From the NCBI GenBank assembly GCA_023388355.1, contig JAEWGI010000024.1, positions 1 to 19,842 on the forward strand: a stretch of 19,842 nucleotides of DNA. Reading direction: 5' to 3'. Below the pieces are notes generated by a model, which saw nothing but the letters and a program-made list of their open reading frames with translations, had not been told where the DNA came from and made no database searches. Shown here piece by piece: positions 183-18,442 of the stretch. Position 1 is the first letter of the stretch, and each line of letters opens with the position of its first letter. The translations under genes were made by a program, and so were the position numbers. Source of the DNA: Pseudomonadota bacterium (lineage in GTDB: Bacteria; Pseudomonadota; Gammaproteobacteria; Xanthomonadales; Xanthomonadaceae).

Positions 183-185
183 CGC

Positions 186-2719: not shown

Positions 2720-2763
2720 CGCATGCTCCAAGGGGGGAAAGCGCGGGTCGAAAGGCGGGGTCG

Positions 2764-2847
2764 AAAGCCGGGGTCGGGGTCGAGTTCCCATCATTCTCCC
2801 GCCGGCGGCACCGACGATCAGGGAACGTCGACTCCGACCCCGGCTTT
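2764..2847. repeat. REP-like palindrome spanning the glycosyltransferase 3' end and the pncB leader
   Basis: Left arm 2764-2789 (AAAGCCGGGGTCGGGGTCGA then GTTCCC) and right arm 2821-2847 are reverse complements except for one mismatch and one extra base, around a 31-base centre. The left side is preceded by two GGGTCGAAAG-type direct copies (about 2746-2766). This resembles the palindromic intergenic repeats that are frequent in Xanthomonadaceae. The right arm lies inside the upstream glycosyltransferase gene. As RNA it would form a long hairpin before pncB. Confidence 0.8.
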
Positions 2848-4571: not shown

Positions 4572-4598
4572 GCGCGCCCCCGCGGGCGTCCACCGGCG

Positions 4599-6806
4599 CT
4601 AGTCCCGCTCGCGGTGGAGCGGCTCCATCGCGCGGAACCTGCGGCTGTACTCGTCGGTGAGGCTGCGTGCCTCGGCGTTGTTGCGGATGATGCGCGCGGT
4701 GATCAGCACGATGGTCTCGCTGCGCGAGGTTTCCGAGCGCTGGTTGCCGAACAGCGCGCCCAGGATCGGGATCCGGCTCAGCCCCGGGATGCCGCCGGCA
4801 CCGCGCTCGACGCCGTCGCTGATCAGGCCGGCCAGCATCACCGTATCGCCATCCTGGGCCGCGGCCTCCGTTTTCAGCCGGCGGGTGGAGATGATGAAGT
4901 TGCCGTTGTTGTCCGGCTGTCCGGTCGGCGCGCTGATCTCCTGCACGATGTCGAGGAACACGGTGCCGTCCTGGGTCACGCGCGGGCGCACCTTGAGGAT
5001 GGTGCCGGTCTCCAGGTACTGCACCGAGGTCAGGCTGTTGTCGCTGCCCAGGATCGGGTTGACCGAAACGGTCGAGACCGGGATGCGGTCGCCGACATTG
5101 AACTCCGCCTCGGCGTTGTTGCGCACGAACACCGACGGCGTGGACAGCAGGCGCACGTCCGAGACCCGGTCCAGCGCGGTGATGATGGCGGCCGCGTCGT
5201 TCTTGAACAGGGTCCAGGAAGCGCCGCTGCCGGTCACGCTGCCGCCGAAGGTGCTCCAGCTGCGCGGAATCTGCGGATTGACGCTGAGGTCCAGGCCGGG
5301 CACCCCCGGCACGCCGATACCGCCGTTCTCGATGTACCACTGCACGCCATAGGCAAGCTCGCCGCTGAGCTGCACCTGCGCCACCTGCGCCTCGATGTGC
5401 ACCTGCAGCGGCATCACGTCCAGCCGTTCGACCACTTCACGGATCGACTTCCAGGCCGTTGGCGTGGTGCGCACCAGCAGGGCGTTGGTCTCGTCCAGCG
5501 CCGATACGCCCACCCGGTCGCCCTCGATCTCGAGCGTCACCCCGCTGGCGCCGCCGCGGTCCTGGCTGAGCGACATCGAGCCGCTGCCGAATCCGCCACC
5601 ACTGCTGCTGCCCCCGCTCGACGGCCCCATCGCGCCCATCGGGTCGCCTTCGCCGCTCCGGCCGGAGTCGCCCAACCGGCCGGCATCGTTGCCGACCGTA
5701 GCCGGGGTGAGCCCGGGCATCAGCGAGGGACCGTCGCCGCCGTCGCCGGAGCTGCGGCTGCCGCCACCGAACACTTCGGCCAGGCGTTCGGCGAGGTCGC
5801 GGGCGCGGATGTACTTGAGTTCGTACGAATACAGGCGCATGCCCGCGCCGGCGCTGTCGATGCGCTCCAGCCACTCGCGGATGTCCTCGAGATAGTCCGG
5901 CTGCGGGGTGATCACCAGCACCGCGTTGGCGCCTTCCAGCGGCATGAAGCGGAACATGCCGGCCACGGGCGACTTGCTCTGCTCGCCGAACACCTTTTCC
6001 AGGTCCGCCACCACCCGGGTGGCCTTGCCGCTCTGCAGCGGGAACACGCCCACCGACATGCCCGAGAGCCAGTCGACGTCGAAGATCTCGATCGTGCGCA
6101 GGTAGTTCTCCAGCTCGATGCGCGAACCCGAGACGGTGATCGTGTTGCGGCCGTTGTCGACCGCGACGATGGCATTGGGACGCGCATAGGGCTCGAGCAC
6201 CTTCTCCATCTCGGTGGCCGAGATGTAGCGCAGCGGCACCACCCGCACCTCGAAGCCGCGCGCGGCGGCCGCGCTGCCGGTGCGCGGGGCGACGGCGCCC
6301 GATAGCAGCGCCGAGTCGGCAGGCACGATCTGGTACATGCCGCCGACGTAGACCATGCGCGCGTTGTTGTCGGCCAGCGCGCGCTCGAGCAGCATGTAGG
6401 CCTGCGCCGGGCTGACCGTGCGCGGCGTGGCCAGGGTCACCGTGCCCTGCACGCCGGGCGCGATGGTGTAGTTCTGGCCCAGCATGTCGCCCAGGACCGC
6501 CTTGACCACCGCGTGCAGCGGTTCGCCCTCGAAGTTGAACGAGGCCTCGCCGCTGCTGCCGCCCAGATTCGGCGGCGGCGACGCGGCGACGCCGCGGTTG
6601 ATCACCTGGCCGGTGCCGCGCCGGATCTGCGCGCGCGGGCCCTCGTCTTCCACCAGCGCCCCGGTGTCGACCGCGCCGGCGGCGCCCGCCTCGGGCGGAT
6701 GCTGCCCGGTCCGCGAGAGCGTGGGCGGCGGCATCGAGGCGCAGGCCGCCAGCAGCGTGATCAGCAGGGCCGCGGATGCGTTTCGGCAGAAGGTTCGGAA
6801 GGTCAT
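4599..6806 (-). CDS. gspD: Type II secretion system secretin GspD (XpsD), outer-membrane channel lipoprotein
   Basis: GspD forms the outer-membrane secretin ring through which folded exoproteins leave. The 735-residue product starts with a lipoprotein signal, with lipobox LAAC and Cys22, as known for XpsD of Xanthomonas. A linker (23-85) is followed by the N0 domain (about 88-162), the N1 and N2 repeats (about 187-315), N3 (about 320-460) interrupted by a Gly/Ser-rich insert (348-415), and the secretin barrel domain (about 465-710) with the signature GIPGLSRIPILGALFG (672-687). The ATG at 6806 is used; a GTG two codons earlier (6812) is an alternative, and neither has a clear ribosome-binding site. 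Only nine bases separate the ATG from the N/C gene. It is the last secretion gene of the cluster, as in the xps operon. Confidence 0.96.
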   Translation of the reverse strand: MTFRTFCRNASAALLITLLAACASMPPPTLSRTGQHPPEAGAAGAVDTGALVEDEGPRAQIRRGTGQVINRGVAASPPPNLGGSSGEASFNFEGEPLHAVVKAVLGDMLGQNYTIAPGVQGTVTLATPRTVSPAQAYMLLERALADNNARMVYVGGMYQIVPADSALLSGAVAPRTGSAAAARGFEVRVVPLRYISATEMEKVLEPYARPNAIVAVDNGRNTITVSGSRIELENYLRTIEIFDVDWLSGMSVGVFPLQSGKATRVVADLEKVFGEQSKSPVAGMFRFMPLEGANAVLVITPQPDYLEDIREWLERIDSAGAGMRLYSYELKYIRARDLAERLAEVFGGGSRSSGDGGDGPSLMPGLTPATVGNDAGRLGDSGRSGEGDPMGAMGPSSGGSSSGGGFGSGSMSLSQDRGGASGVTLEIEGDRVGVSALDETNALLVRTTPTAWKSIREVVERLDVMPLQVHIEAQVAQVQLSGELAYGVQWYIENGGIGVPGVPGLDLSVNPQIPRSWSTFGGSVTGSGASWTLFKNDAAAIITALDRVSDVRLLSTPSVFVRNNAEAEFNVGDRIPVSTVSVNPILGSDNSLTSVQYLETGTILKVRPRVTQDGTVFLDIVQEISAPTGQPDNNGNFIISTRRLKTEAAAQDGDTVMLAGLISDGVERGAGGIPGLSRIPILGALFGNQRSETSRSETIVLITARIIRNNAEARSLTDEYSRRFRAMEPLHRERD

Positions 6807-6815
6807 CGGCACAGT

Positions 6816-7640
6816 CTATTGGTTGGTCGGGTTGGCGCGCTGCCTGGCCGGCGCCGTTTCTTCCGCGCGCAGTCGCGCGCGGCGCTCCTCGATCCGGCGC
6901 CGGATCATCTCCACCTGTTCCTGCGCCGCCTGCTGCTGGCTCGGGCCGTCGGCCGCCATGTCGGCCATGGGGTCGGCCATGGGGTCGTCCGGCGCGGGGC
7001 GCTCGCGCCGGGACGTCTGTGCGCCGCCGCTGGCCTGCGCCTGCGGGCCCATGGCCGGATCGGCCTCGGGCGTCGGCGACGCCGACGCATCGGCCATCGG
7101 GTCGGGCGCGTTGAACGGCGTCGGCGCCTGTCCCCCCATGCCGTCGAACACGCGCAACTCCAGCGCCTGCTCGCCCTCCGGCCCGACGAACACCGCGCGC
7201 CGCGCCTCCACCGTCTCCAGCACCCAGCCCGGCGCACCGTCCGGCGCGTTGCCCTGGCGCACCCGCACCGGCTCGCCGCCGCCGGCCGGCTGCAGGATCA
7301 CCAGTTGCACCTCCGGCGTGAGCAGCACGCTGGTCAGCACGTAGTCGAAGCCGCCGCCGCCTTCGCCGGCGTCGGCCATCGGGTCGATCACGAACGGCTG
7401 CGGGCGCCGGTTGTCGGTGAACAGCGGACGCGCGGCGATTTCGCCGTACTGCGGCAGCGGCCCGAGGCGTCCGGGCGCGCGCGCCACCGGCGCCGGCAGC
7501 GCCTGCCGCAGCGAAGGATCGTCGTCGAGCCGGTCGATGCTGCCGCCCATGCCGAACATCGCCAGCACCCACACGCACAGCGCCCAGCCGGCGAGCGCGG
7601 CGTACAGCCAGGTTCGCGCTCCGGCGTCCTCAGCGCGCAT
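6816..7640 (-). CDS. xpsN: Type II secretion system protein XpsN (GspC-like inner-membrane linker)
   Basis: In the xps system this protein takes the GspC place, linking the L/M platform to the secretin across the periplasm. The 274-residue product has one N-terminal membrane anchor (about 11-30), a Pro-rich spacer, a homology-region domain (about 58-170: YGEIAARPLF then a beta-rich core with LTSVLLTPEVQLVIL), and no PDZ domain. The C-terminal third is low-complexity and ends in a Gln/Arg/Glu-rich predicted coiled coil (about 235-262), which recalls GspC proteins that end in a coiled coil instead of PDZ. The pentapeptide DPMAD occurs four times (86-90, 180-184, 219-223, 223-227). The ATG at 7640 overlaps the end of gspM by 11 bp. 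Databases may name it GspN or GspC. Confidence 0.85.
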   Translation of the reverse strand: MRAEDAGARTWLYAALAGWALCVWVLAMFGMGGSIDRLDDDPSLRQALPAPVARAPGRLGPLPQYGEIAARPLFTDNRRPQPFVIDPMADAGEGGGGFDYVLTSVLLTPEVQLVILQPAGGGEPVRVRQGNAPDGAPGWVLETVEARRAVFVGPEGEQALELRVFDGMGGQAPTPFNAPDPMADASASPTPEADPAMGPQAQASGGAQTSRRERPAPDDPMADPMADMAADGPSQQQAAQEQVEMIRRRIEERRARLRAEETAPARQRANPTNQ

Positions 7641-8244
7641 CGGCCGCTCCCGCCTGGTGGACCGGCTGCAGGTAGCCCGAGAGGTCGAAGCTCACGTCGA
7701 CCCCACCGCCGCTGCCGTGGTTGCCGCTGAACTGGTAGCGCTGGGCGAGGATGTTGAGGTTGTCGACGAACAGCCGCGGCGAGCCGCTTTCGAGCGAATG
7801 CAGCACGGTGGCCAGTTCCGGATTGCCGCAGGTCAGGCGCACCTGCACGGTGGCGCGCGGAAAGCGCTCCTCGCGCGCGTCGTTCATCGGCTGGCGGTTG
7901 GTGATCGCGCAGCTGCGGTTGCCGGGGCTGGCCCGGGCCACCACCTGCTCCAGCCGCTGCACCAGGGCCGAGGTCGCCAGCTGCACGTTGGCTTCGGCCA
8001 TGAACCCGGGCGCGCTGCCGGCCGCGGCGCGCGCGGCCTCCAGCCGCTCCTGCACCTGCGGCGCCTGGGCTAACTCGGTGCGCGCGCGCAGGTCGCGCTC
8101 GCGCAGCGCGTCGATGCGCGCGCCGGTTTCGAGCATCGGCACCGTCCACCACGGATGCACCAGCACCAGGTAGGCGAGCGCGAGCGCGCCGGCGAGGATC
8201 GCCAGCGCCAGCCAGCGGTCGCGCCTAGCGGGCTGCGGCTGCAT
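7630..8244 (-). CDS. gspM: Type II secretion system protein GspM (XpsM)
   Basis: GspM is a bitopic inner-membrane protein that binds and stabilises GspL in the assembly platform. The 204-residue product has a short basic N-terminus, one membrane segment (about 11-30, LALAILAGALALAYLVLV), a predicted coiled coil (about 40-75, rich in Arg, Glu and Ala) and a periplasmic ferredoxin-like domain (about 85-190). Two Cys residues (in RSCAIT and LTCGNP) could form a disulfide in the periplasm. Position between gspL and the N/C gene supports the call, since GspM is weakly conserved in sequence. Its ATG at 8244 lies 20 bp inside gspL and its stop lies 11 bp inside the next gene, a sign of coupled translation. 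Confidence 0.88.
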   Translation of the reverse strand: MQPQPARRDRWLALAILAGALALAYLVLVHPWWTVPMLETGARIDALRERDLRARTELAQAPQVQERLEAARAAAGSAPGFMAEANVQLATSALVQRLEQVVARASPGNRSCAITNRQPMNDAREERFPRATVQVRLTCGNPELATVLHSLESGSPRLFVDNLNILAQRYQFSGNHGSGGGVDVSFDLSGYLQPVHQAGAADAR

Positions 8245-9418
8245 CGGCTGCCTCCGGCGCGGGTGCCGCGGGCTGCGCGGCGGCGTCCGCGGTGGCCACG
8301 GTCGCGGTCAGGGTGAAGCGATCCATGCGGCTGCGCGGATCGGGCTGCAGCGCGCCGGCCAGCGCCGGCGAAGTCCACAGCGGCGAGCCCTGCAGCTGCC
8401 CGACCAGGGCCGAGGCCTCGCTGCTCAGTCCGATCAGCAGGATCCGGTCGCCCTCGATCGACAGCTTTTCCAGATAGGTGCCGTCGGGCAGCCGTCGCGC
8501 CAGCTCGTCCATCAGTTCGACCATGGTCGGGGTGCCCGCACGCGCGGCCTGCAGGAACGCGCCACCTTCCACCAGGTCCAGCAGGCGGCGCTTTTCCAGC
8601 GAGGCGGCGCGGGCTTGGCGCACGGCCTCGTCCACCTGCTGTTCGAACACGTCCGCGGCAGCCTCGCGGTTGGCCAGCATCTGCCACATGCCCAGGCACA
8701 GCGCCAACGCGGCCGCCAGCAGCAGCATCGCGTTGCGCCGGCGCCAGGGATCCTCGCGCCGGTGCCTGCGCGCGTCGCCCATCAGGTTGACCGCGAGCGG
8801 CTCGCCGTCGGCGTTGGCGGCATCCACGCCGGCCAGGGTGGGCGCGATCGGGCCCAGCGCCTCGAGCGCCGCGGCCAGCGTAGTCCTCGGCACCACCACC
8901 AGTTCGACGTCGAGCTGGTCGTCGCCGCGGCGGCCGAGCACGCGCGCGTCGTAGCTCACTTCGGCGGCGCTGAACGGGGTCTGGCGGTCGATCTCGAATC
9001 CAAGCACCTCGCGCAGCCGCTCGCCCGCGGCGGCGGGCAGGGTGAGCCGGCGCCGCAGCACCACGGACGCGGGCAGCACCAGCCAGCGCGGCACGTCGGC
9101 CACGCGCGGCGAGAGCACGATCGCCAGCGGATCGCCCTGGCGGCCGGCAAAGCCCGCCAGCGGCAGGTCTGCAAGCAGGCGCACGCCGTCGCCGCGCCAC
9201 AGCGCCAGCTGCAGTTCGGGGCCCCGCGCGCGCAGCAGCAGCCGCTGCGGCGAGAGGCCGAACAGGTCGCGGGTGCGGGCGGGCAGCCAGCTCGCAAGCG
9301 CGGCGGTCCACCACGATACGAAGCCGCGCAGGCGCGGCCGCAGCGAGCCTTCGACCCGGCGCAGCCCGCCCCGCAGCCCGCCCGGGGCCGCTGCGGATTG
9401 TTCATCCACGGCACTCAT
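8225..9418 (-). CDS. gspL: Type II secretion system protein GspL (XpsL)
   Basis: GspL is the bitopic inner-membrane protein that holds the ATPase GspE at the membrane and pairs with GspM. The 397-residue product has a cytoplasmic actin-like N-terminal half with the PilM/GspL-type stretch LREVLGFEIDRQTPFSAAEV (136-155), one membrane segment (about 229-248), a coiled coil (about 250-285), and a periplasmic ferredoxin-like domain (about 290-375) with LPDGTYLEKLSIEG, as in PilN/GspL. An Ala/Pro tail ends it. The ATG at 9418 is chosen because it overlaps the gspK stop as ATGA; the frame extends eight codons further upstream but only inside gspK. The first 45 residues are Arg/Gly/Trp-rich and look poorly conserved. 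Confidence 0.9.
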   Translation of the reverse strand: MSAVDEQSAAAPGGLRGGLRRVEGSLRPRLRGFVSWWTAALASWLPARTRDLFGLSPQRLLLRARGPELQLALWRGDGVRLLADLPLAGFAGRQGDPLAIVLSPRVADVPRWLVLPASVVLRRRLTLPAAAGERLREVLGFEIDRQTPFSAAEVSYDARVLGRRGDDQLDVELVVVPRTTLAAALEALGPIAPTLAGVDAANADGEPLAVNLMGDARRHRREDPWRRRNAMLLLAAALALCLGMWQMLANREAAADVFEQQVDEAVRQARAASLEKRRLLDLVEGGAFLQAARAGTPTMVELMDELARRLPDGTYLEKLSIEGDRILLIGLSSEASALVGQLQGSPLWTSPALAGALQPDPRSRMDRFTLTATVATADAAAQPAAPAPEAADAAAAR

Positions 9419-10284
9419 CGCGGCAACGCGCCTTCCTCCCATCTCAACACGGTGAATGCCGACCCCGGCACGCCACTGGGCCCGAGCCGGACCACGGCGC
9501 GCAGGGCGGATTCGCGCCCGTCCCTGAGCCGCGCCCGGCTCTCGATACTATACGTGCCGCTGCCGGCGCCCACGAACGAGGGATCTCCCGGCTGCGGAGT
9601 GCGTTCACGGTTGGCCAGCACCGGTGCGGGATCCACGCCCATGGCTTCGAGCACCGGCGCCGCGGCGAAGCGCGCATCGGGAATCGGCAGGCCGCTGTGG
9701 ATGGTGAGGTGTCCGGCCAGGGTCGCGTACAGCGCCGGGGTCATGCCCAGCACCTGCTCGACCTCGGCCACGGTTTCGAACGGTGCGTCCTTCGCACCCC
9801 ATGGCAACCCGGCCGCGGCGTACTGCGGGTCCTCGGCGCCGCCCTGGGGCTGGGTGAGATCGTCGCCGTCGCGCCAGTCGACGATCGCGGCCGCCACCGC
9901 GTCGGCCTGCGCGGGTTCGGCGCCGAGCACGCGCATCAGCGCCGACAGCGACGCCGCGTCGGCGGCGTTGAGGTCGAACTTGCCGGATTCGTCGATGATC
10001 CGGACCTCCACGTCGGCGCCGGCGAAGCTCCACGCGTGGGCGCGTCCGTCCGGCGCCCACTGCAGGCGCAGGTCGGGATGCGAGACGCGCGTGGTCGCGT
10101 ACTCCAGACCCGCGCGTGCGACCTGGCCGGCCACCAGCGACGCGCCCAGGGTGCGGCCCCGCAGGTATTCGGTCTGCGCGGTCATCGCGAACGCGCCGAT
10201 CAGCGCCGCCAGCAGCGCCACCAGCCACAGCACCAGGACCAGCGCGGCGCCGCGGCCGCGTGTGCGTGCGCGGTTGCGGTTCAC
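9415..10284 (-). CDS. gspK: Type II secretion system minor pseudopilin GspK (XpsK)
   Basis: GspK is the large minor pseudopilin that sits at the pseudopilus tip with GspI and GspJ. The 289-residue product has a short prepilin leader (MNRNRARTRGRG, 12 residues) cleaved before Ala13, then the hydrophobic segment AALVLVLWLVALLAALIGAF without the Glu5 found in other pseudopilins, which is normal for GspK. The motif DLNAADAASL and the following helical region fit the T2SSK alpha domain inserted in the pilin fold. The start is GTG at 10284, overlapping the gspJ stop as GTGA; the open frame further upstream lies inside gspJ. Unlike gspG to gspJ, its leader is of ordinary length and carries no repeat sequence. 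Confidence 0.93.
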   Translation of the reverse strand: MNRNRARTRGRGAALVLVLWLVALLAALIGAFAMTAQTEYLRGRTLGASLVAGQVARAGLEYATTRVSHPDLRLQWAPDGRAHAWSFAGADVEVRIIDESGKFDLNAADAASLSALMRVLGAEPAQADAVAAAIVDWRDGDDLTQPQGGAEDPQYAAAGLPWGAKDAPFETVAEVEQVLGMTPALYATLAGHLTIHSGLPIPDARFAAAPVLEAMGVDPAPVLANRERTPQPGDPSFVGAGSGTYSIESRARLRDGRESALRAVVRLGPSGVPGSAFTVLRWEEGALPR

Positions 10285-11201
10285 GGCACCATGCCCCCCA
10301 GCCGCTGCGGCAGGCTCACCACCATCGGCGGCCACGCGCCCGCGCCGCGGCTGGACAGCCGCAGTTCGACCTGCAGCGGCAGCGCATCGACGTACTCCCA
10401 GCGATCCTGCCATTCGCCCAGGCGCCCGTCCTCGGCCAGGCCGCGGTAGCGGAAGCGGGCCTCGACCAGATCCGGCACCAGCGCCTCGGGCGGCCGCGCG
10501 TTGCGGTCCTCGATCGTGCCGCCGGCAACCGCCATGGTGAAGGCGACCGTCAGCTCCGGTCCGTGCCCGCCCTCCAGCACCGCCACGTCGTGCAGGTGCG
10601 GGCCGCCGCGACCGAGATAGTTCGGCAGGTCGGCAACGAAGCGCACCCGTTCGGGCTCGCCGATGAAGCGCACCATGCGGCCGCTGTCGGGTTCGATCGC
10701 GAACGCGACCGGCGTCGCCGACGCCAGCCGCCGGCGCAGGAAACCTTCCACCGCGCGCATGCGCTCGGTGCGCTCGGCCATCCGTTCGCCCCGATCGACC
10801 GTGGCCGTGGCCGCGCGCAGCGTGGCGAAACCGAGCGCCAGCCCCGCCGCCAGCAGGGCGGTGGCAAGCAGGATTTCAATCAACGTGAATCCGCGCTGCC
10901 GCGCATTCGACGATCGCACGCCAATGAGGCCGTCGCCGCGCCGCGCAGGTCCAGCCGCCTTGTCGGGAACGAGGCCGTCGCCACGGCCGACGCCAAAGAC
11001 TCGCCCGCGAAAAACGCCTTTCCCCCACCAACCACCAAGCACCCGCACGTCGCCAGCGCCACCACCACCGTCGTCACCAGCACCCCTGCCACCCGAACCG
11101 CATGCATCCCACCAACCACCAGCACCTCGCGTATCAGCGACACCGTCGCCGCCCTGCAGGGCAACACCGCCAGCCACCAACCTCCGCCAGCCCGCCCTCA
11201 T
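10281..11201 (-). CDS. gspJ: Type II secretion system minor pseudopilin GspJ (XpsJ) with a 104-residue predicted leader
   Basis: GspJ is a minor pseudopilin of the tip complex. The core is clear: ARQRG^FTLIEILLATALLAAGLALG with Glu5, then a beta-rich periplasmic domain of the T2SSJ type (FRYRGLAEDGRLGEWQDRWE and LPLQVELRLS near the end), 202 residues after cleavage. The start is uncertain. An in-frame ATG at 11201 overlaps the gspI stop as ATGA, the coupling used elsewhere in this operon, but it places 104 residues, largely Gly-rich and repeat-encoded, before the cleavage Gly. The alternative is GTG at 10919, which gives an ordinary 10-residue leader (VRSSNARQRG) but has no visible ribosome-binding site. 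Codons in the extra leader (many GGT and GTT) differ from those of the core. The core call is firm and the start is not. Confidence 0.85.
   Translation of the reverse strand: MRAGWRRLVAGGVALQGGDGVADTRGAGGWWDACGSGGRGAGDDGGGGAGDVRVLGGWWGKGVFRGRVFGVGRGDGLVPDKAAGPARRGDGLIGVRSSNARQRGFTLIEILLATALLAAGLALGFATLRAATATVDRGERMAERTERMRAVEGFLRRRLASATPVAFAIEPDSGRMVRFIGEPERVRFVADLPNYLGRGGPHLHDVAVLEGGHGPELTVAFTMAVAGGTIEDRNARPPEALVPDLVEARFRYRGLAEDGRLGEWQDRWEYVDALPLQVELRLSSRGAGAWPPMVVSLPQRLGGMVP
10922..11034 (-). repeat. Leader-embedded repeat, gspJ copy
   Basis: Bases 10967-11034 match the gspI copy at 11632-11699 at about 60 of 69 positions by hand count. The left part (10922-10966) matches the gspG copy, sharing a GCGCCGCxCAGxTCCAxCCG block. 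Read on the minus strand in the gspJ frame it gives GWWGKGVFRGRVFGVGRGDG and a second RRGDGL. The Pro/Thr-rich plus-strand words CCACCAACCACC recur at about 11025 and 11109, suggesting a further local duplication upstream. The rest of the 10920-11197 stretch shows no other gene. Confidence 0.75.
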
Positions 11202-11770
11202 CCCCCCACTCCCGAAGGATCCGGCTGCACCAGCCGCAGCGATTCCACCTGCAGCCGCTCGCGCGCGCCACCCTCCCCCCAGCGCACCAGCAGCGACAGC
11301 CGCAGCAGCTGCGGCGCGAATCGATCGACCGGCTGCCCGGGCACGCGCGCGCGATCCAGGTAAGGCTCGATCTCCAGCTCCCAGGCGTAGCGCCCGTCCT
11401 CGAAGTTTCCGTCGCGCCGGCCCGGCGCCAGCACTTCGCCCACGCCGACCACGTCCAGCAGCGACTGCGCATGCAGCGCCGCGCGCGCGCTGTCGGCCGA
11501 CCACCGCACCTGGCGCGTGCCGCCGGACAGGATCCCCAGCAGCAGCGTCAGCGCCAGGCCGAGCACGGCGAAGGCGACGATGATCTCGAGCAGGGTGTAG
11601 CCGCGCTGCCGAGAAGGTACCGGCCGCACGCGAACCAGGCCGTCGCCACGGCCGACACGACTGACTCGCCCGCGGGAAACGCCCTTCCCCCACCAACCAG
11701 CAACCGCCGGCGCACCCGCAGCGCGATCATCGCTACGGACACCGGCGACCCGCTCGCGCGGCAGGCTCAT
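11198..11770 (-). CDS. gspI: Type II secretion system minor pseudopilin GspI (XpsI) with a 57-residue predicted leader
   Basis: GspI is a minor pseudopilin that nucleates the tip with GspJ and GspK. The core reads SRQRG^YTLLEIIVAFAVLGLALTL with Glu5, then a small T2SSI-type domain (WELEIEPYLDRA, LLRLSLLVRWGEG), 133 residues after cleavage. The ATG at 11770 overlaps the gspH stop as ATGA and is in frame, giving a leader of 57 residues that runs through a repeat also present before gspJ and gspG. A GTG at 11629 would give a 10-residue leader (VRPVPSRQRG) but has no ribosome-binding site upstream. Tyr rather than Phe at the first mature position is slightly unusual for a pseudopilin. The stop overlaps the candidate gspJ ATG. 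Confidence 0.87.
   Translation of the reverse strand: MSLPRERVAGVRSDDRAAGAPAVAGWWGKGVSRGRVSRVGRGDGLVRVRPVPSRQRGYTLLEIIVAFAVLGLALTLLLGILSGGTRQVRWSADSARAALHAQSLLDVVGVGEVLAPGRRDGNFEDGRYAWELEIEPYLDRARVPGQPVDRFAPQLLRLSLLVRWGEGGARERLQVESLRLVQPDPSGVGG
11632..11699 (-). repeat. Leader-embedded repeat, gspI copy
   Basis: It is closely similar to 10967-11034, same orientation, and read in the same frame (GWWGKGVSRGRVSRVGRGDG). It ends 11 codons before the prepilin cleavage Gly, the same distance as in gspJ and gspG. Confidence 0.8.
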
Positions 11771-12387
11771 CGCACCACCTCGCCGCGCCGCAGCGTCACC
11801 TCGCCGGTCAACCACGCCACGTCGATGTTCCAGGCTGCGTCGCGCAGGCTCAGCTGCAGGCGCCCGCCGGTGGACGCGCCGTCGCCGAAGAACACGATCG
11901 CGCCGACGCCGGCCCGCGGCTGCACTTCGCGCGCGCCGGTGAAACGCACCTCGAGCGTCTCCGGCAGTTCGCCGCCGCGTCCGTTCGCCCCCTGCCAGGT
12001 GCGCGCGGCGGGATCGACGGTGAACGTCTGCGGCGCGCCGGTGGCGATCGCATGGGCACGGGCGAAGCGCATCTGCGCCGCCATCTCCTTGGCCCCGGTG
12101 CGCAGGGCCATGCGGTCGAAACCGCCGGTCAGCACGCCGGCCGCCAGCAGTCCGGTGGCGGCGATCAGGGCCATCACCAGCAGCAGTTCCAGCAGCGAGA
12201 ATCCACGCTGCCGGACTCGCGCCGCTTCCGTGATCGGCGCGATCCGTCCGGATGCGGCGCGCGTGCCCGGACACCGACCCTTCCCCGGCCCTCCCCTGGA
12301 AGGAGGGGGCGAAGGGCGGAGCTGCCCCTCGCGGGAGCAGCGCGCGTCGACGGCAATCGCAGGATCAGCGCGCAGACCGGCCCTCAT
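11767..12387 (-). CDS. gspH: Type II secretion system minor pseudopilin GspH (XpsH) with a 62-residue predicted leader
   Basis: GspH connects the pseudopilus shaft to the tip complex. The core reads VRQRG^FSLLELLLVMALIAATGLLA with Glu5, followed by a GspH/FimT-type beta domain (LRTGAKEMAAQMRFARAHAIATG and FFGDGASTGGRLQL), 144 residues after cleavage. The ATG at 12387 has GGAG about 11 bases upstream and lies 26 bp after gspG. From that ATG to the cleavage site there is no other in-frame ATG, GTG or TTG, so unless a rare start is used the leader is 62 residues long. Leader residues about 18-38 (REGQLRPSPPPSRGGPGKGR) are encoded by a palindromic GC-rich repeat. The stop overlaps the gspI start as ATGA. 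Confidence 0.9.
   Translation of the reverse strand: MRAGLRADPAIAVDARCSREGQLRPSPPPSRGGPGKGRCPGTRAASGRIAPITEAARVRQRGFSLLELLLVMALIAATGLLAAGVLTGGFDRMALRTGAKEMAAQMRFARAHAIATGAPQTFTVDPAARTWQGANGRGGELPETLEVRFTGAREVQPRAGVGAIVFFGDGASTGGRLQLSLRDAAWNIDVAWLTGEVTLRRGEVVR
12275..12345. repeat. Palindromic GC-rich repeat inside the gspH leader
   Basis: CCCTTCCCC to CCTCCCC near 12278-12295 pairs imperfectly with GGAGGGGGCGAAGGG at 12302-12316. A smaller palindromic part (GAGCTGCCCCTCGCGGGAGC) follows at 12320-12339. It resembles short palindromic intergenic repeats of this family but lies inside the coding frame of gspH. Confidence 0.6.
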
Positions 12388-12413
12388 GGGTCACCTGCTC
12401 CAGTCGCCGGCGA

Positions 12414-12971
12414 TCAGTCGTAGCGGATGTCGGCGTCGACGCTGGTACCGCCGGCGCTGCGGTCGGCGCCGAGGCTGACGATGTCGAACGGCCGGCCATC
12501 GCCCGGGGCCCGGTATTCGAACGGCGTGCTCCAGGGATCGCGCAGCTCCGACTCCTTCGCGTACGGCCCCAGCCAGCCGACCGCGTCGCCGGGCTGCACC
12601 ACCAGCTGTTCCAGCGAGGCGGGGAGCGAGCCGGTATCCATCCGGAACTGTTCGACCTTCTCGGCCAGGGTCTGCACCTGCGCCTCCGCCAGCCGCACCC
12701 GCGCACGGTCGCCGCCGCCGAGGATGCGGGTCGCGGCGAACGCGACGATGCCGCCGATCAGGACCACCACCAGGATGATCTCGATGAGGCTGAAGCCCCG
12801 CTGCGCGAACCCGACCGCGGCTCCGCCAGCGATGCCGTTGCCACGGCAGACACCAGCAACCGGCCCGCGCCGCCCAGCTCCAACCGCCTTGCTGCTCTCG
12901 CCGCGACCAACGCCAGCCAATCGCCCACGCGAAATCCCGCCACCGCGCACCTGTATCCGTCGTCCCGCCAT
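12414..12971 (-). CDS. gspG: Type II secretion system major pseudopilin GspG (XpsG) with a 59-residue predicted leader
   Basis: GspG is the main subunit of the pseudopilus that pushes substrates through the secretin. After the leader the protein begins FSLIEIILVVVLIGGIVAFA with Glu5, and ends in the calcium-binding loop region SLGADRSAGGTSVDADIRYD typical of GspG; the mature part is 126 residues. The ATG at 12971 is favoured because a near-perfect GGAGGAG lies 6 bases upstream. The only later in-frame ATG, GTG or TTG codons before the cleavage site are GTG at codon 8 and TTG at codon 18, so the leader is at least 42 residues. Leader residues about 10-50 are repeat-derived and parallel those of gspJ and gspI (ISRGRLAGVGRG against FRGRVFGVGRG). 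It follows gspF after a 114-bp gap. Confidence 0.93.
   Translation of the reverse strand: MAGRRIQVRGGGISRGRLAGVGRGESSKAVGAGRRGPVAGVCRGNGIAGGAAVGFAQRGFSLIEIILVVVLIGGIVAFAATRILGGGDRARVRLAEAQVQTLAEKVEQFRMDTGSLPASLEQLVVQPGDAVGWLGPYAKESELRDPWSTPFEYRAPGDGRPFDIVSLGADRSAGGTSVDADIRYD
12830..12955 (-). repeat. Leader-embedded repeat, gspG copy (diverged, two units)
   Basis: Unit one is 12830-12872 (GATGCCGTTGCCACGGCAGA region). Unit two is about 12893-12955 (CTCGCCGCGACCAACGCCAG onward). Between them GCCGCCCAGCTCCAACCGCC matches the block at about 10940-10960 before gspJ. Similarity is lower than between the gspI and gspJ copies, but orientation, reading frame and distance to the cleavage site are the same. 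Confidence 0.65.
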
Positions 12972-12977
12972 ATCCGT

Positions 12978-12984
12978 CTCCTCC
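12978..12984 (-). promoter_or_regulatory. Strong Shine-Dalgarno of gspG
   Basis: GGAGGAG, with ACGGAT between it and the ATG at 12971. It is the best ribosome-binding site in the operon and decides in favour of the long-leader start. Confidence 0.75.
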
Positions 12985-13033
12985 ACAACACAATCCGTTC
13001 AGCACGTCCCACCAGGAGAACGCAGCACATCGG

Positions 13034-13063
13034 CCGGCATCCCCGCGAACGCGGAAATGACGG
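13034..13063. repeat. REP-like palindrome in the gspF/gspG gap
   Basis: CATCCCCGCG (13038-13047) and CGCGGAAATG (13050-13059) form an imperfect palindrome inside CCGGCATCCCCGCGAACGCG. Related motifs occur in the pyrF/pncB gap (GCGGGATGAC near 1249, GCGGGGATGAC near 1493). It is probably a dispersed repeat. Confidence 0.65.
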
Positions 13064-13085
13064 CAGGTGCGAACCATCCGCACGT

Positions 13086-14300
13086 TCACCCGATCACATT
13101 CGTCAGATCATAGATCGGCACCAGCACCGCGAGGATCACCACCATCACCACCAGCGCAAGCAGCAGGGTGATCGCCGGCACCAGCGCCGCCAGCATGCGA
13201 TCCAGCGCCTGTCCGGTTTCCTGCTCGAAGGTGTCGGCGGTCTTGAGCAGCATCGCGTCGAGCGCGCCGGATTCCTCGCCCACCTGCACCATCTGCAGCG
13301 CCAGGCGCGGGAAGCGCTTGCCGCGGCCCAGCGCCGTCGACAGCCCGACGCCGTTCTTCACTTCCTCGGCAGCAGCTTCGACATCGGCGGCAAGCACGCG
13401 GTTCCCGACCACCGTGCGGCCGATGCCCAGCGCCGCCATCAGCGGCACGCCGTTGCGCAGCAGGGTGCCGAGGGTCCGCGCCAGGCGCGCGGTTTCCAGA
13501 CGCGCGGCCATCGTCCCCATCAGCTTGCGGCGCAGCATCCAGCCGTCGAAGCGGGTGCGGAAGGCGGGATCGCGCAGGCGTCGGTCGAACCACCACAGCG
13601 CCAGTGCCGGGACCACCAGCAGCACGATCCACCAGTCGCGCACGAACAGGCCGATGGCCAGCACGATCTTCGTGAACAGCGGCAGCGGCGCATCGAGGCT
13701 TTCGTACATGGCCGCGAACTGGGGCACCACGTAGCCGAGCAGGAACATCAGCGACAGCCCCACCATCACCACCAGGATCGCGGGATAGATCAGCGCATTG
13801 ATCACCCGCCCGCGCAGCAGACGGCTGCGCTCGAGGTAGTCGGCCAGCCGCTGCAGGGTTTCCTCCATGCTGCCACCGGCCTCGCCGGCGCGCACCATGT
13901 TGATGTACAGGCGCGAGAAGGTGCCGTGCTGGCGTTCGAGCGCGGTCGACAGCGCGGCGCCGCCGCGCACCGCATCGCGGATCTCGACGATCGTGCGCCT
14001 GGCGGCCGGCTCGTCGGGCAGTTCCAGCAGGATCGTCAGCGCGCGGTCGAGCGGCTGCCCGGCGCCGAGCAGGGTCGCCAGCTGCTGGGTGAACTGCACC
14101 AGACGCTGGCCCGCGAACGGCCTGCGCCGCAGCAGCGCCTTCCACGACCCCGCGCCGCCCTCGCCCGCCGGTCGCGCCTCGACCGGCAGATGCCCCTGCT
14201 CCTGCAGGCGCAGCACCACCTCGGCGTCGCTCGCGGCCTCCATCCGGCCCTCGAGCATCTCGCCGCGCGCATTGAGCGCCTTGTAGTGGAACAAGGGCAT
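13086..14300 (-). CDS. gspF: Type II secretion system inner-membrane platform protein GspF (XpsF)
   Basis: GspF is the polytopic platform protein thought to couple GspE to pseudopilin movement. The 404-residue product is of normal length and has the two T2SSF domains: the first (about 65-190, with QLATLLGAGQPLDRALTILL and RAGEAGGSMEETLQRLA) and the second (about 268-395, with TLGTLLRNGVPLMAALGI and QVGEESGALDAMLLKTA). Membrane segments are at about 168-193, 210-236 and 370-396. The N-terminus (MPLFHYKALNARGEMLEGRM) is the classical GspF opening, so the ATG at 14300 is sound, although no good ribosome-binding site precedes it. It is 159 bp downstream of gspE, across a GC-rich gap with a tandem palindromic repeat. 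Confidence 0.96.
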   Translation of the reverse strand: MPLFHYKALNARGEMLEGRMEAASDAEVVLRLQEQGHLPVEARPAGEGGAGSWKALLRRRPFAGQRLVQFTQQLATLLGAGQPLDRALTILLELPDEPAARRTIVEIRDAVRGGAALSTALERQHGTFSRLYINMVRAGEAGGSMEETLQRLADYLERSRLLRGRVINALIYPAILVVMVGLSLMFLLGYVVPQFAAMYESLDAPLPLFTKIVLAIGLFVRDWWIVLLVVPALALWWFDRRLRDPAFRTRFDGWMLRRKLMGTMAARLETARLARTLGTLLRNGVPLMAALGIGRTVVGNRVLAADVEAAAEEVKNGVGLSTALGRGKRFPRLALQMVQVGEESGALDAMLLKTADTFEQETGQALDRMLAALVPAITLLLALVVMVVILAVLVPIYDLTNVIG

Positions 14301-14413
14301 GTCAGGGGCCGGGCCCGGGGAAAGCGGTGACGGAACTGGGCTGGGGGAGCGTCATCCACGGGTCGCGCGCGGAAAAAACGCATGCGCCGACACGCCGGAA
14401 CGTGTCCGCCCTT

Positions 14414-14443
14414 CCCGGGACCCGGGACCCGGGTCCCGGGCCC
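14414..14443. repeat. Tandem CCCGGGN heptamers forming a 20-bp perfect palindrome
   Basis: Four CCCGGGN units (N = A, A, T, C) lie at 14414-14441. Bases 14421-14440 are a perfect palindrome (CCCGGGACCCGGGTCCCGGG). They fall in the 159-bp gspE/gspF gap, which otherwise shows no gene or promoter that I can support. The array could form a stable hairpin in the operon mRNA. There is no U-tract, so it is not a typical terminator. Confidence 0.8.
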
Positions 14444-14459
14444 CGCTCGCTCTCCATCC

Positions 14460-16196
14460 TCACGCCTCCTCCGTCACCCGCAGCACTTCCTCGATCGTGG
14501 TCACGCCGGCAAGCGCCTTGGCGAGGCCGTCCTCGTACATGGTGCGCATGCCGTGCTGGCGTGCGAGCTGTTCGATCTCGCCCATGCCCGCGTGGCGCAT
14601 CACCGCGCGGCGCAGCTCGTCGTTCATCACCAGGAATTCCATGATCGTGGTGCGGCCGAGGTAGCCGGTGGGCGCGATCGCCGAGCCGCGCGCGCGATAC
14701 AGGAAGATCTCGCCTTCCGGCTGGAAGCGGCGCAGGCCGAACTTCTCGATCTCCTCCGGCGACGCCGGGTACTGCTCGGCGTGGGTGGGCTCCAGCCTGC
14801 GCACCAGCCGCTGGGCGAGGATGCCGTTGATCGTGGAGGTCAGCAGGTAGTCCTCCACGCCCATGTCGAGCATGCGGGTGATGCCGCCGGCGGCGTTGTT
14901 GGTGTGCAGGGTGCTGAGCACCAGGTGGCCGGTGAGCGCGGACTGGATCGCGATGCGCGCGGTTTCCAGGTCGCGCATCTCGCCGATCATGATGATGTCG
15001 GGGTCCTGGCGCACGATGCTGCGCAGGGCGTGGGCGAAGTCGAGGCCGATCTGCGGCCGCGCCTGGATCTGGTTGATGCCTTCGATCTGGTATTCGACCG
15101 GGTCCTCGACGGTGATGATCTTCACGTCGGGCGTGTTGAGCCTGCTCAGCGCGGTGTACAGCGTGGTGGTCTTGCCCGAGCCGGTGGGCCCGGTGACCAG
15201 CAGGATCCCGTGCGGCTGCTCCAGCACGCGCTGGAACTGCGGCAGGAACGCGGAGGTGAAGCCCAGCCGCTCGAAGTCGAACACCACCGTCTCGCGGTCG
15301 AGCAGGCGCATCACCACGCTCTCGCCGTGCGCGGTGGGCACGGTGCTCACGCGCAGGTCCAGCTCCTTGCCCTGCACCCGCAGCATGATGCGGCCGTCCT
15401 GCGGCAGGCGGCGTTCGGCGATGTTGAGCCTGGCCATGATCTTGACCCGGCTGATCACCGCCGCGGTCAGGTTCGAGGGCGGGCTTTCGCCGTCCTCCAG
15501 CACGCCGTCGATGCGGTAGCGCACCTTGAGCCGGGTTTCGAACGGTTCGATGTGGATGTCGGACGCGCGCAGCTCCACCGCGCGCTGGATGACCAGGTTC
15601 ACCAGGCGGATCACCGGCGCCTCGGAGGCGAGGTCGCGCAGGTGCTCGACGTCGTCCATGTCGCCGCCGCCCTCGCCGTCGGCGGTCTCGACGATCGCGC
15701 CCATCGCGCTGCGGCCCTGGCCGTGCCAGCGTTCGATCAGGTCGTCGATCTCCGAACGCAGGCCGACGACCGGCTGCACCTCGCAGCCGGTGGCCAGGCG
15801 CACCGCGTCGAGCGCGTACGAGTCGTGCGGATCGGCCATCAGCAGCGCCAGCCGACCGTCGCTGCCGCCGATCGGGCACAGGTGGAACTGCTTGAGGAAG
15901 CGCACGCCCGGCGACTGCGCATCGGACAGCAGTTCCGGCGGCTCGGCCGGCAGGTCCTTGACCGCCACCAGGTCCAGGCCCAGCGCCTGGGCGCAGGCCT
16001 CGGCGTGATCGCGTTCGGAGACCAGCCCAAGCCGCGACAGCAGCTGCAGGATCGCGCCGCCGGCTTCCTCCTGCAGTCGCCGGGCGCGCGCCAGGTCGAC
16101 ATCCTTGAGCTGCTGCCTGGCCAGCAGCGCGGCGAGGATGCGGTCTTCCGCGGTCTGTGCCTCGGGCGCGGCGACCGGGTCGGGAATCGCGTTCAC
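14460..16196 (-). CDS. gspE: Type II secretion system ATPase GspE (XpsE)
   Basis: GspE is the cytoplasmic hexameric ATPase that powers pseudopilus assembly. The 578-residue product has the N1 domain (about 15-80), which in XpsE contacts GspL, the N2 domain (about 90-155), and the C-terminal motor with Walker A GPTGSGKT (336-343), the Asp box ITVEDPVEY (361-369), Walker B DIIMIGEMRD (400-409) and the His box LVLSTLHTNNA (425-435). Close agreement with Xanthomonas XpsE runs through almost the whole length. The four zinc-binding cysteines of many GspE proteins are absent between residues 460 and 500. The start is GTG at 16196 with GGAAG 7 bases upstream; the frame is open to 16661 but that overlaps the protease gene. 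It is the first gene of the secretion operon. No clear sigma-70 promoter is visible in the 125-bp gap upstream. Confidence 0.96.
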   Translation of the reverse strand: MNAIPDPVAAPEAQTAEDRILAALLARQQLKDVDLARARRLQEEAGGAILQLLSRLGLVSERDHAEACAQALGLDLVAVKDLPAEPPELLSDAQSPGVRFLKQFHLCPIGGSDGRLALLMADPHDSYALDAVRLATGCEVQPVVGLRSEIDDLIERWHGQGRSAMGAIVETADGEGGGDMDDVEHLRDLASEAPVIRLVNLVIQRAVELRASDIHIEPFETRLKVRYRIDGVLEDGESPPSNLTAAVISRVKIMARLNIAERRLPQDGRIMLRVQGKELDLRVSTVPTAHGESVVMRLLDRETVVFDFERLGFTSAFLPQFQRVLEQPHGILLVTGPTGSGKTTTLYTALSRLNTPDVKIITVEDPVEYQIEGINQIQARPQIGLDFAHALRSIVRQDPDIIMIGEMRDLETARIAIQSALTGHLVLSTLHTNNAAGGITRMLDMGVEDYLLTSTINGILAQRLVRRLEPTHAEQYPASPEEIEKFGLRRFQPEGEIFLYRARGSAIAPTGYLGRTTIMEFLVMNDELRRAVMRHAGMGEIEQLARQHGMRTMYEDGLAKALAGVTTIEEVLRVTEEA

Positions 16197-16278
16197 GGTG
16201 GGGCTTCCGTCGGGGGCCCCGACTTTAACAGCTTGGCCGTGCGCGCTGCCTGGCGCGGCGGCCACCCCGGAAAGCGGA

Positions 16279-16299
16279 AGCCCCGGCCTGGCCGGGGCT
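16279..16299 (-). terminator. Hairpin after the S8 protease gene
   Basis: AGCCCCGGCC (16279-16288) and GGCCGGGGCT (16290-16299) are perfect inverse arms. On the minus strand the stem is followed by TCCGCTTTCC, a weak U-tract. It lies 22 bp after the protease stop and 83 bp before gspE, so it may end protease transcription or limit read-through into the secretion operon. Confidence 0.6.
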
Positions 16300-16321
16300 C
16301 CGCGTCGCATCCCCGCGATGC

Positions 16322-18253
16322 TCAGTTGTGGCGCGCTAGCAGCCGCACGTTGCTGTAGGCGCGGGTGCCGACCAGCTTGATGTAGTACGTGCCGGCCTGC
16401 GGCGCGTTGATGCGCACCGTCTCGTTGTTGCCCGGACGCGCTGAGCGGTACTGGGCCGCCTCGTCGGTCGGTTCCTCGTCGAGGCTGACCAGCAGGGTGA
16501 CGTTGCCGCTGCCGCCGGAGGTGGTGATGCTCAGCGGGCCGCGGACGCCGGCGGGCACCTCGATGCTGTACAGGGCCTCGCTGCCGGTGCCGCCCGACAG
16601 GCCGGTCAGCGCCGCGCCGTTGGCAATCGGGGTGGCATCGGGTTCGCAGTCGACCTCGCACGGCGGCTCGATCGCGCTGGCCACCGCGGCGGCGGCGTTG
16701 ACGATGCCCGCACCGATCGGCTGCGACGCGCCGGGCGCGACCGTGAACGGGGTCGCGGTGTCCTGCAGGATGTCGCGCACCTCGGCCGGGGTCAGCAGCG
16801 GCATGCCCGCATCCAGGCGCGCGCCCTGCATCAGCGCCACCACGCCGGCCACGTGCGGCGAGGCCTGGGAGGTGCCGGCCGAGCCGCCGTAGGCGCTGAC
16901 CGGGTCGATCTCGGCCAGCGGCGCCGGGCTGGTGGTGCTCGGGTTGCGCGCCTGCCAGACGAAGCCATCGTAGATCTGGCTGCCGCTGCCGGCGTCGTTG
17001 GCGTAGATACCGCCACCCGGGGCGGAAATCTCGACGCCGTCACCGTAGTTGGAATAGAAGGCGCGGCGGCTGGTGACGCCGTTGGCGGCGACGGTGATCA
17101 CGCCCGGGCAGTTGGCGGGCGAATAGCCGGACACATTGGCGGCGTCGTTGCCGGCGGCGACCACCACCACCGCGCCCAGTTCGTTGGCCTCGTTGATGGC
17201 GGCCATGTCGCCTGCCGTGCACGGCCCTTCCCCGCCCAGGCTGAGGTTGATGACATGGGCTGGATTCGGGTTCGCCGGCATGCCTTCGACCACGCCGCCT
17301 GCGGCCCAGACGATGGCGTCGTTGATGTCGCTCTCGTAGCCGCCGCAGTGCCCGAGCACGCGCAGGTGCAGGATGTCGGCGCCGTAGGCGATGCCGGTCA
17401 TCCCCACGCCGTTGTCGGTCAGCTGCGCGCCGGCGGTGCCGGCGACGTGGGTGCCGTGCCAGGAACTGTTGCGCTGCTGGCAGCCTTCCGCGCCCGGATA
17501 GCCGACGGTCCAGTCGCCCAGGTCCCAGCCACCGGGCACGCGGTCGTCGGTCTCGCGGCCGGACACGAAGGCGTCGGTGATGAAGTCGTATCCGGCGTCG
17601 ACGTTCGAGGTGTCGATGTCGGGATGCGCGGTAATGCCGGTATCGAGTACCGCGATGGTGATGCCGTTGCCGTCGGCCAGGTCCCAGGCCGCGGGTACGT
17701 TGGCGCCGCCGCGGTTCGGGCCCCCGTCGTAAGTGGCCGAGCCGTCCGGCGCCAGCATGTGCCACTGGTACTCGATGAAGTCGGGATCGTTCGGGATGTA
17801 GGCCGGCTGCACGCCCGGCAGGCGTTCGGCGCTGCGCGCGATCTGGCGCAGGCGGTCGGGGCGCACCGAGACCACGTCCGGATCGGCCCGGAGCTGGCGC
17901 ATCAGCGCGGCGGCTTCGACCCGGTCGAGGCTGCGCGAGAGCTTGAGCAGATGCTCGCCGCTGGCGAGCCGGCGCAGGTGGCTGGCGGTGGCCGGACGCG
18001 TCGTCGCCAGGCCCGACTGCGACAGGGCGCGGGTCAGGCCTGCCGCGGCGGCCCTGCGGTCCCCCGCCTCGCGCGCGCCGTCGCGGTACTCGACCAGGAA
18101 ACGGTGGAACAGCTGCTGGTCACCGACGCTGGCCGACAGCCGGGAGGTGTCCGCGGCGAACTTCGCCTTCTTGCCCGCGGTGGCGCCCGTGACGCCGATC
18201 GCGGCGATCACGGCGACCGCCAGGGTGCAGGGGAGGATATTGCGTTTGTTCAT
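16322..18253 (-). CDS. Secreted subtilisin-like serine protease (S8 family) with C-terminal PPC-type domain
   Basis: The 643-residue product has a Sec signal peptide (1-26, cleavage likely after GATA), a propeptide (about 27-145, ADPDVVSVRPD near its end) and an S8 catalytic domain (about 150-525) with Asp204 in IAVLDTGI, His266 in WHGTHVAG, the oxyanion Asn369 in AAGND and Ser462 in GTSQASPHVAG. A Cys-containing linker (CEVDC) leads to a beta-sandwich PPC domain (about 540-640), a module common in extracellular proteases of Xanthomonas, Lysobacter and Vibrio and often removed after export. Six Cys residues in the mature part could form disulfides. The ATG at 18253 has GAGAGGG as ribosome-binding site. 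Its location directly before gspE, together with its domain set, suggests export by the adjacent type II system. The physiological substrate is unknown. Confidence 0.95.
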   Translation of the reverse strand: MNKRNILPCTLAVAVIAAIGVTGATAGKKAKFAADTSRLSASVGDQQLFHRFLVEYRDGAREAGDRRAAAAGLTRALSQSGLATTRPATASHLRRLASGEHLLKLSRSLDRVEAAALMRQLRADPDVVSVRPDRLRQIARSAERLPGVQPAYIPNDPDFIEYQWHMLAPDGSATYDGGPNRGGANVPAAWDLADGNGITIAVLDTGITAHPDIDTSNVDAGYDFITDAFVSGRETDDRVPGGWDLGDWTVGYPGAEGCQQRNSSWHGTHVAGTAGAQLTDNGVGMTGIAYGADILHLRVLGHCGGYESDINDAIVWAAGGVVEGMPANPNPAHVINLSLGGEGPCTAGDMAAINEANELGAVVVVAAGNDAANVSGYSPANCPGVITVAANGVTSRRAFYSNYGDGVEISAPGGGIYANDAGSGSQIYDGFVWQARNPSTTSPAPLAEIDPVSAYGGSAGTSQASPHVAGVVALMQGARLDAGMPLLTPAEVRDILQDTATPFTVAPGASQPIGAGIVNAAAAVASAIEPPCEVDCEPDATPIANGAALTGLSGGTGSEALYSIEVPAGVRGPLSITTSGGSGNVTLLVSLDEEPTDEAAQYRSARPGNNETVRINAPQAGTYYIKLVGTRAYSNVRLLARHN

Positions 18254-18406
18254 GAGTGCCCTCTCTGGGAACGTAGGTCATTCGCACATGGACGACGCGG
18301 TTGGTTTTGCCGCGTCGCGGTCACCGTCTGCTGCTCTCGCTTGCCTGAAGGCGATCCCCGCGGGAGACGGATGCGCCGTGGCGCCCCCCGGGAACCTTGA
18401 TCCGTC

Positions 18407-18435
18407 GCGGCGGCCGGCGTGGCACCGGCCGCCGC
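18407..18435 (-). terminator. Hairpin after the adhesin gene
   Basis: An 11-bp perfect GC stem (GCGGCGGCCGG at 18407-18417 with CCGGCCGCCGC at 18425-18435) and a 7-base loop lie 8 bp after the adhesin stop. No U-tract follows, so termination is plausible but not certain. The remaining gap to the protease ATG (18254-18406) should hold the protease promoter; I cannot identify one with confidence. Confidence 0.55.
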
Positions 18436-18442
18436 ATGTGCT

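Follow-up and report, generated by a model that had tools for sequence, protein, structure and literature searches.

We identified a short repeat, here termed element E, that lies in frame in the leader-encoding parts of three pseudopilin genes of a type II secretion system (T2SS) operon and recurs in related operons, mostly ending at the glycine codon of the prepilin cleavage site. The operon is located on a 19.8-kb stretch of DNA (contig JAEWGI010000024.1, positions 1 to 19,842; hereafter the window). We consider it probable, at about 0.75 for the explanation as a whole, that E is a short repeat without a gene of its own, similar to repetitive extragenic palindromic (REP) sequences and either selfish or locally copied, which is tolerated and frame-filtered in a peptide that prepilin peptidase removes. 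The operon is encoded on the minus strand in the order E-F-G-H-I-J-K and, as judged by sequence similarity, belongs to the Lysobacteraceae and is closest to Luteimonas; GspF shares 91% identity with its counterparts in Luteimonas rhizosphaericola (locus L003) and Luteimonas sp. J29 (L005). Above Pfam cut-offs, gspG was assigned to T2SSG, gspH to GspH and N_methyl, and gspI and gspJ to N_methyl alone, and these domains together with the operon position after gspF identify gspG to gspJ as T2SS pseudopilin genes. The window gspE was named by eye, and gspK by position and tblastn of its relatives.

A covariance model of E, R1, was built from 51 copies and matched the window three times, once in each of the leaders of gspG, gspI and gspJ; all three copies were in the training set. 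The leaders and their repeat units are as follows.

12795..12971, minus strand: gspG leader, 59 residues, start ATG preceded by GGAGGAG
12796..12875, minus strand: element E in the gspG leader, R1 56.9 bits (E-value 7e-7), ending at the cleavage glycine codon
11600..11770, minus strand: gspI leader, 57 residues, ATGA start overlapping the gspH stop
11601..11680, minus strand: element E in the gspI leader, R1 73.8 bits, ending at the cleavage glycine codon
10890..11201, minus strand: gspJ leader, 104 residues, ATGA start overlapping the gspI stop
10936..11015, minus strand: full element E in the gspJ leader, R1 79.9 bits
10890..10935, minus strand: partial 15-residue repeat unit in gspJ, from the full E to the cleavage site, read from the translation

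A preliminary description of the window had reported a related repeat on the same strand and in the same frame of these three leaders, as well as the leader lengths given above (59 residues for gspG as the probable value), and both agree with our results. Its figure of 60 identical bases out of 69 between the gspI and gspJ copies is exact (maximum of 15 shuffles, 39), and the gspG copy is, as it had stated, more diverged, with 40/69 identical bases to gspI (shuffle maximum 37) and 43/69 to gspJ (shuffle maximum 40). As these latter identities are hardly above chance, the case for the gspG copy rests on frame, register and model score. The fixed distance of 11 residues between repeat block and cleavage glycine is literally true, but was counted in gspJ from the second, partial unit, which ends at the cleavage site, while the full copy sits 15 residues further upstream; in gspG, two units had been merged into one block. 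A distance of 46 nt from E to the +1 codon, as in the window gspJ, was also found in gspG of L001 and L020 and in gspJ of L062. Since the 3' end of E lies directly before the GG of its target, the fixed distance would be the element's own 3' part and not a measured spacing.

E is about 73 nt long, has an approximate consensus of GGCGATTCATTGGCGTCA-GCCGTGGCGACGGC-ATCATTG...GCAGCGCGG, and has four parts: GGCGATTCATTGG on the 5' side, the GCCGT-nnnn-ACGGC hairpin in the centre, a stretch of variable sequence, and GCGC at the 3' end, which abuts the target GG (GCGCGG). All five stem pairs are conserved, each in 48-51 of the 51 R1 rows, whereas the loop varies. The outermost stem pair is G-C in 49 rows and the next is C-G in all 51, and the positions outside the stem pair in only 10 and 13 rows. 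Beyond the training set, the stem is altered yet paired in L158 and L162 (CGCGT/ACGCG) and in L161 (CCCGT/ACGGG), and has lost its outer pair in L160, L163 and L168 (CCCGT/ACGGT). Rfam models at gathering score had zero matches in the window, L074, L068, L105 and L085, and matched only the signal recognition particle (SRP) RNA and a tRNA in L161 and L186, which rules out E as a known RNA family in the sources searched. E is not a simple CGTC-tagged REP either. In PMC3733652, these are defined by an unpaired CGTC at the hairpin end and by complementary A-T at the first and second stem positions; in E, CGTC occupies alignment columns 24-27 in 7/51 rows (TGTC in 16/51) and the A-T pairs are missing. 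GTAG was not among the commonest tetramers at two positions on the 5' side of the stem.

Eighty related loci (L numbers) were retrieved via GspF, with gspG and gspH located in 76 and gspI and gspJ in 75 of them (no hits to any of the four genes in L039, L042, L065 and L071, or to gspI and gspJ in L072). In these loci and the window (81 sources, 1,477,140 bases), R1 produced 53 matches at an E-value <= 0.01, distributed over 36 genes of 19 sources. All 53 are sense-strand copies that read in frame with the mature protein, located in leaders or spacers of gspG (n = 12), gspH (n = 9), gspI (n = 9) and gspJ (n = 23). In 27 of the 36 genes, the final copy runs precisely up to the cleavage glycine and stops a single base before +1; in the remaining nine, 16 to 79 nt, by eye often part-units of E, separate it from +1. 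A model-free scan of the window and relatives for a perfect 5-bp hairpin in spacers of >=60 nt placed it 51 nt upstream of +1 in 24 of 180 genes, whereas every other offset between 30 and 89 nt was represented by fewer than three genes, with a background of 0.3% of positions; this register greatly exceeds chance. The host range thus exceeds that of the preliminary description, as E is also carried by gspH of relatives (L003, L011, L048, L051, L074) and by a second T2SS of L. salinisoli. None of the 53 matches falls in a GspK leader, and no E was seen by eye in GspK translations of 19 sources, several of these translations stopping before the cleavage site. R1 detected 0 to 4 copies per gene, and the set of carrier genes differs between near neighbours. 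Largely through repeat copies, the gspJ leader ranges from 6 residues (L009) to 163 (L003).

The GspF tree of 76 rows has E in 19 and lacks it in 57 (carrier set assembled by hand), a distribution that needs at least ten changes, seven of them forced by well-supported branches. Similarity among copies is 0.589 for different genes of one genome (21 pairs), 0.441 for the same gene between genomes (155 pairs) and 0.419 where both differ, in a 35-gene set that probably holds two false members (gspH of L008, gspJ of L032). From these tree changes and the within-genome similarity, E is gained and lost in the course of evolution, apparently with copying inside genomes, in line with the earlier view of one repeat family at equivalent sites of paralogues, with copies common to one genome.

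Genome scans covered <=150 candidates per genome (ten genomes) or <=31 (sample of 149 family genomes), so that all counts are lower bounds. The ten genomes contained at least 64 R1 matches at an E-value <= 0.01. Among the 64 listed, 48 are in pseudopilin operons (42 in the main gsp cluster, six in the second T2SS of L. salinisoli), nine at the 3' end of parE, five at the 5' end of sbcB, one at the 3' end of hrpB and one elsewhere; the G006 hits on C3 and C35 each adjoin a contig end, so that a single sbcB locus may have been counted twice. At least 19 of the 149 genomes had a match at an E-value <= 0.001 with stricter filters. A widely dispersed genomic repeat is ruled out for the ten genomes, and E, first described as a dispersed repeat, is little dispersed in them: among the matches listed, copies are mostly in T2SS pseudopilin operons, with few gene-end sites besides. 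In the second L. salinisoli T2SS (contig C50; L250, G007:C50:16000-34000), GspE, F, G, I, J and K score above NCBIfam cut-offs, GspH was recognised by Pfam, and a GspM domain is also present; its GspF is far below the XpsF cut-off, which indicates a T2SS of another type. E is present, in the same frame, in the leaders of its H, I and J, while its G is without E.

Neighbours of the non-pilin copies were identified by family models on fragments, with exodeoxyribonuclease I and HrpB_C of Pfam above cut-off, and with ParE, HrpB and PolA fragments as best matches yet below whole-protein cut-offs; further parE sites were named by eye from the same C-terminal peptide. Weaker E matches follow polA and SRP RNA. 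The sites at the ends of hrpB, polA and sbcB (5' end) and just after SRP RNA are in L160, L162, L085, L098, L161 and L186, and several of the non-pilin hosts are genes for DNA replication or repair. At the parE 3' end, E arrays (L105, L106, L116, L120, L159, L183, L184) are followed by duplications with alignment lengths of 26-73 nt that include the last parE codons, and L159 has three tandem units of ~110 nt. The spacing of copies is a multiple of 3 in 17/17 pilin versus 4/10 non-pilin cases (Fisher p 0.0007), the latter figure omitting two weak array spacings (146 and 161 nt, E-values 0.1-0.4), neither a multiple of 3.

Such copies bear on how E spreads. It is possible, although we think it doubtful, that E is non-mobile and originated in a single pseudopilin leader, from which tandem slippage and gene conversion carried it to paralogues, with the rare copies elsewhere as accidental microhomology exports. 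This would account for the concentration in gsp clusters (48/64 among matches listed), for the within-genome similarity and for an E 3' end that equals the pseudopilin QRG codons. As slippage would do, upstream host and E sequence is repeated after E in 14 of 26 aligned non-pilin copies (score 15 or more, alignment length 22-73 nt); eight of these 14 duplications start 35-36 nt after the hairpin, by eye mostly at GG or G shared with the host, while for the other 12 copies the script detected nothing convincing (score 11 or less), L105 having a duplication by eye. A non-mobile E is harder to reconcile with its presence at the parE 3' end of at least seven genomes (some by eye), where the duplication differs or is missing, with the separate hrpB, polA, sbcB and SRP RNA sites, and with its occurrence in leaders of the second T2SS, which is of a different type and on a separate contig. 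Conversely, E may be a site-targeted mobile element that recognises a few bases before GG and is sheltered at the prepilin cleavage codon, a proposal to which we give slightly less credence still. The variable host duplications with GG microhomology at non-pilin copies would fit target-primed insertion, as in short interspersed nuclear elements. If true, a site-targeted E would pass through transcription and translation but be absent from the mature protein, much like an intein, with a host enzyme, prepilin peptidase, removing it.

Within the prepilin genes of five genomes, E is restricted to T2SS pseudopilins. These genomes contained 74 N_methyl matches at an E-value <= 0.01, 22 in T2SS clusters and 52 elsewhere, and E is present within ~50 nt upstream of 16 of the 22 T2SS-cluster sites (positions compared by hand). 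At the 52 other prepilin-type sites of these genomes, a hairpin at the register was found in none, and R1 up to an E-value of 1 gave a single match of 17.9 bits (Fisher p 1e-11 for T2SS versus other sites, ignoring kinship). For the five genomes, this rules out E as a general prepilin-leader element that includes type IV pilins. The motif (G)CGCGG precedes +1 in 143 of 268 pseudopilin genes without E (107 GCGCGG, 36 CGCGG) and in 9/52 other prepilins, none of those nine with E; being common without E, it may help but does not suffice, and site choice by (G)CGCGG alone is ruled out. Local copying between paralogues, a (G)CGCGG preference or an undetected function could each contribute to the restriction.

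The contrast of 16/22 with 0/52 sites would also be expected if E were functional in the leader, with its basic peptide or its mRNA hairpin tuning pseudopilin translation, stoichiometry or targeting, and were kept by selection; the exact register, the sense orientation and a stem that is kept while the loop varies point the same way. We nevertheless regard a functional E as unlikely, because 57/76 tree rows are without E, copies vary from 0 to 4 per gene in a gene set that changes between near neighbours, the peptide is poorly conserved outside RxDG, and the same element lies outside the coding frame beside parE, sbcB, hrpB and SRP RNA. The preliminary description had left open whether the leaders tune targeting or expression or are tolerated because they are removed; the latter fits best, and nothing was seen here for the former.

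The lengthened leaders are very probably translated, given their frame and stop conservation, start-free stretches and a retained GspG start segment. Measured between the preceding stop and the cleavage site, the frame of the overlapping start is kept in 75/75 gspJ and 72/76 gspI genes (exceptions L015, L025, L031 and L061; gspJ of L008, with a negative gap, was left out of the frame counts). Overlapping starts are mostly ATGA or GTGA, with TTGA or CTGA in four gspI and three gspJ genes. Since relatedness makes gene counts non-independent, distinct spacer lengths in frame (33/37 for gspI, 34/34 for gspJ) are the fairer figure. Among spacers of >=60 nt, 24/24 in gspJ and 25/28 in gspI are in frame. 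All 49 long gspI and gspJ leaders are free of stops in the coding frame, versus 36/98 with stops in the other two frames, which rules out GC-rich openness as the sole cause of the open frames. For gspI and gspJ, frame conservation thus supports the earlier proposal of translation from the upstream coupled start, and the frame-breaking indels that would speak for untranslated spacers are, apart from the four gspI genes, not seen. The proposal that E entered near the old start codon does not hold, as the site is directly 5' of the cleavage codon and a GspG start segment like MxNRRxQVR persists upstream of the repeat in L001-L005, L037, L074 and the window. That the E stretches are untranslated spacers with downstream initiation, as proposed for many N-terminal REPs (judged non-coding by the authors of PMC3733652), is compatible with a GTG at -10 in the window gspI and gspJ (by eye without an obvious ribosome site before it) and with start codons at -7 in, for example, gspG and gspI of L074, but is very improbable in view of the frame and stop conservation in gspI and gspJ, of 14/36 E-bearing genes, including the window gspG, without an in-frame ATG, GTG or TTG between the last hairpin and the cleavage site, and of all 21 gspG and gspH copies being in frame with their own mature part despite previous-stop-to-cleavage distances of all three remainders modulo 3.

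Taken together, we favour a REP-like repeat tolerated in a removable peptide. The target GG would, in T2SS pseudopilin genes, be the start of the -1 glycine codon, at which E would fuse in frame, encode R(G/A)DG(I/L)..10..RQRG and leave the cleavage motif intact. The lengthened leader, a basic, low-complexity stretch, would be translated, presumably stay in the cytoplasm and presumably be removed by prepilin peptidase, so that E would be tolerated as long as the frame and the cut-site glycine are kept. Copy number would grow in tandem units of 84 or 45 nt, copies would be exchanged between the G, H, I and J genes of a genome, and selection would discard those that break the frame. Several points weigh against this explanation. 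Three of the 28 long gspI spacers are frame-breaking (L015, L025, L061), 22 of the 36 E-bearing genes have an in-frame ATG, GTG or TTG after the last hairpin, which leaves room for internal initiation, and the within-genome similarity that suggests copying is modest. Tolerance alone does not explain the restriction, since E is absent from 52 equally tolerant-seeming prepilin-type genes. The species are related and counts are not independent, and most of the counted matches belonged to the R1 training set, so that the informative results are the hairpin scan and the regions in which R1 had no match.

The fourth pseudopilin gene of the window has a leader with a repeat of another kind.

11767..12387, minus strand: gspH (Pfam GspH), leader of ~62 residues, without E and with another palindromic repeat instead

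This repeat, at 12280-12318, comprises the CCTCCCCTGGAAGGAGGGGG region and is read as PSPPPSRGGPGKG; all four window leaders, G to J, thus contain repeat-like DNA. In the gspF-gspG spacer upstream of gspG (13040-13066), a palindrome CCCGCGAACGCGG, with TGACGG nearby (CGTC on the other strand), is presumably REP-like. At L033, 2501 nt separate the gspF stop from the GspG cleavage site, which suggests an insertion in that operon. The window T2SS operon adjoins a subtilisin-like protease gene (16322-18253), whose product may be a T2SS substrate, and a YadA-like autotransporter fragment (18443-19840), both named by eye. At 1261-1423 there is an inverted repeat whose arms of 63 nt are 78% complementary and separated by 37 nt.

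E provides a natural, many-times-repeated experiment in which a prepilin leader was stretched up to 163 residues (coupled-start reading) with the secretion-pilus gene still open, and would be a clear case of a cleaved protein part as a refuge for repeat DNA. It is also a warning for gene callers, as pseudopilin starts in these genera can be far upstream of the position expected from a short-leader rule. With its sharp 3' boundary and few genomic targets, E is a tractable case for how REP-like repeats move. Among open-licence full texts, with most subscription papers outside coverage, no paper on repeats in pseudopilin leaders was found.

According to passages of PMC10191384, prepilin leaders are cytoplasmic and of variable length, as in type IVb pilins and the type IV pilins of Streptococcus sanguinis, where they are very long; no repeat origin is described in these passages, whereas the gspJ leader here varies in length between relatives largely by repeat copies. 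Like the GTAG- and CGTC-tagged REP families (PMC3733652), E has a small hairpin with a loop of 4, as in CGTC family 1, and occurs near the 3' ends of conserved genes, and its sites at parE, polA, sbcB and hrpB recall the intragenic REPs noted there in DNA synthesis and repair genes. Unlike these families, E is conserved in sequence well beyond the hairpin, and it lacks the conserved tag and outer A-T stem pairs of the CGTC-tagged REPs. Closest in kind are the Rickettsia palindromic elements (RPE-1, RPE-4, RPE-6) and intragenic REPs, likewise short palindromic repeats within coding genes; E resembles them in lying in frame in a host protein, with the stem kept and translation presumed. In PMC3733652, in-frame REPs are described above all for Rickettsia, with reports of repeat clusters coding for 43-82 residues and of in vivo expression of R. 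conorii proteins with N-terminal RPE-1. RPEs and REPs decorate varied, unrelated genes, mostly at varied sites, whereas the coding copies of E observed here are confined to one functional class, one codon and a cleaved peptide, across species and paralogues. The kind of element thus looks already known, and its niche and register look new; a single codon position, recurrence in four paralogues and many species, and absence from other prepilins go beyond the RPE precedent.

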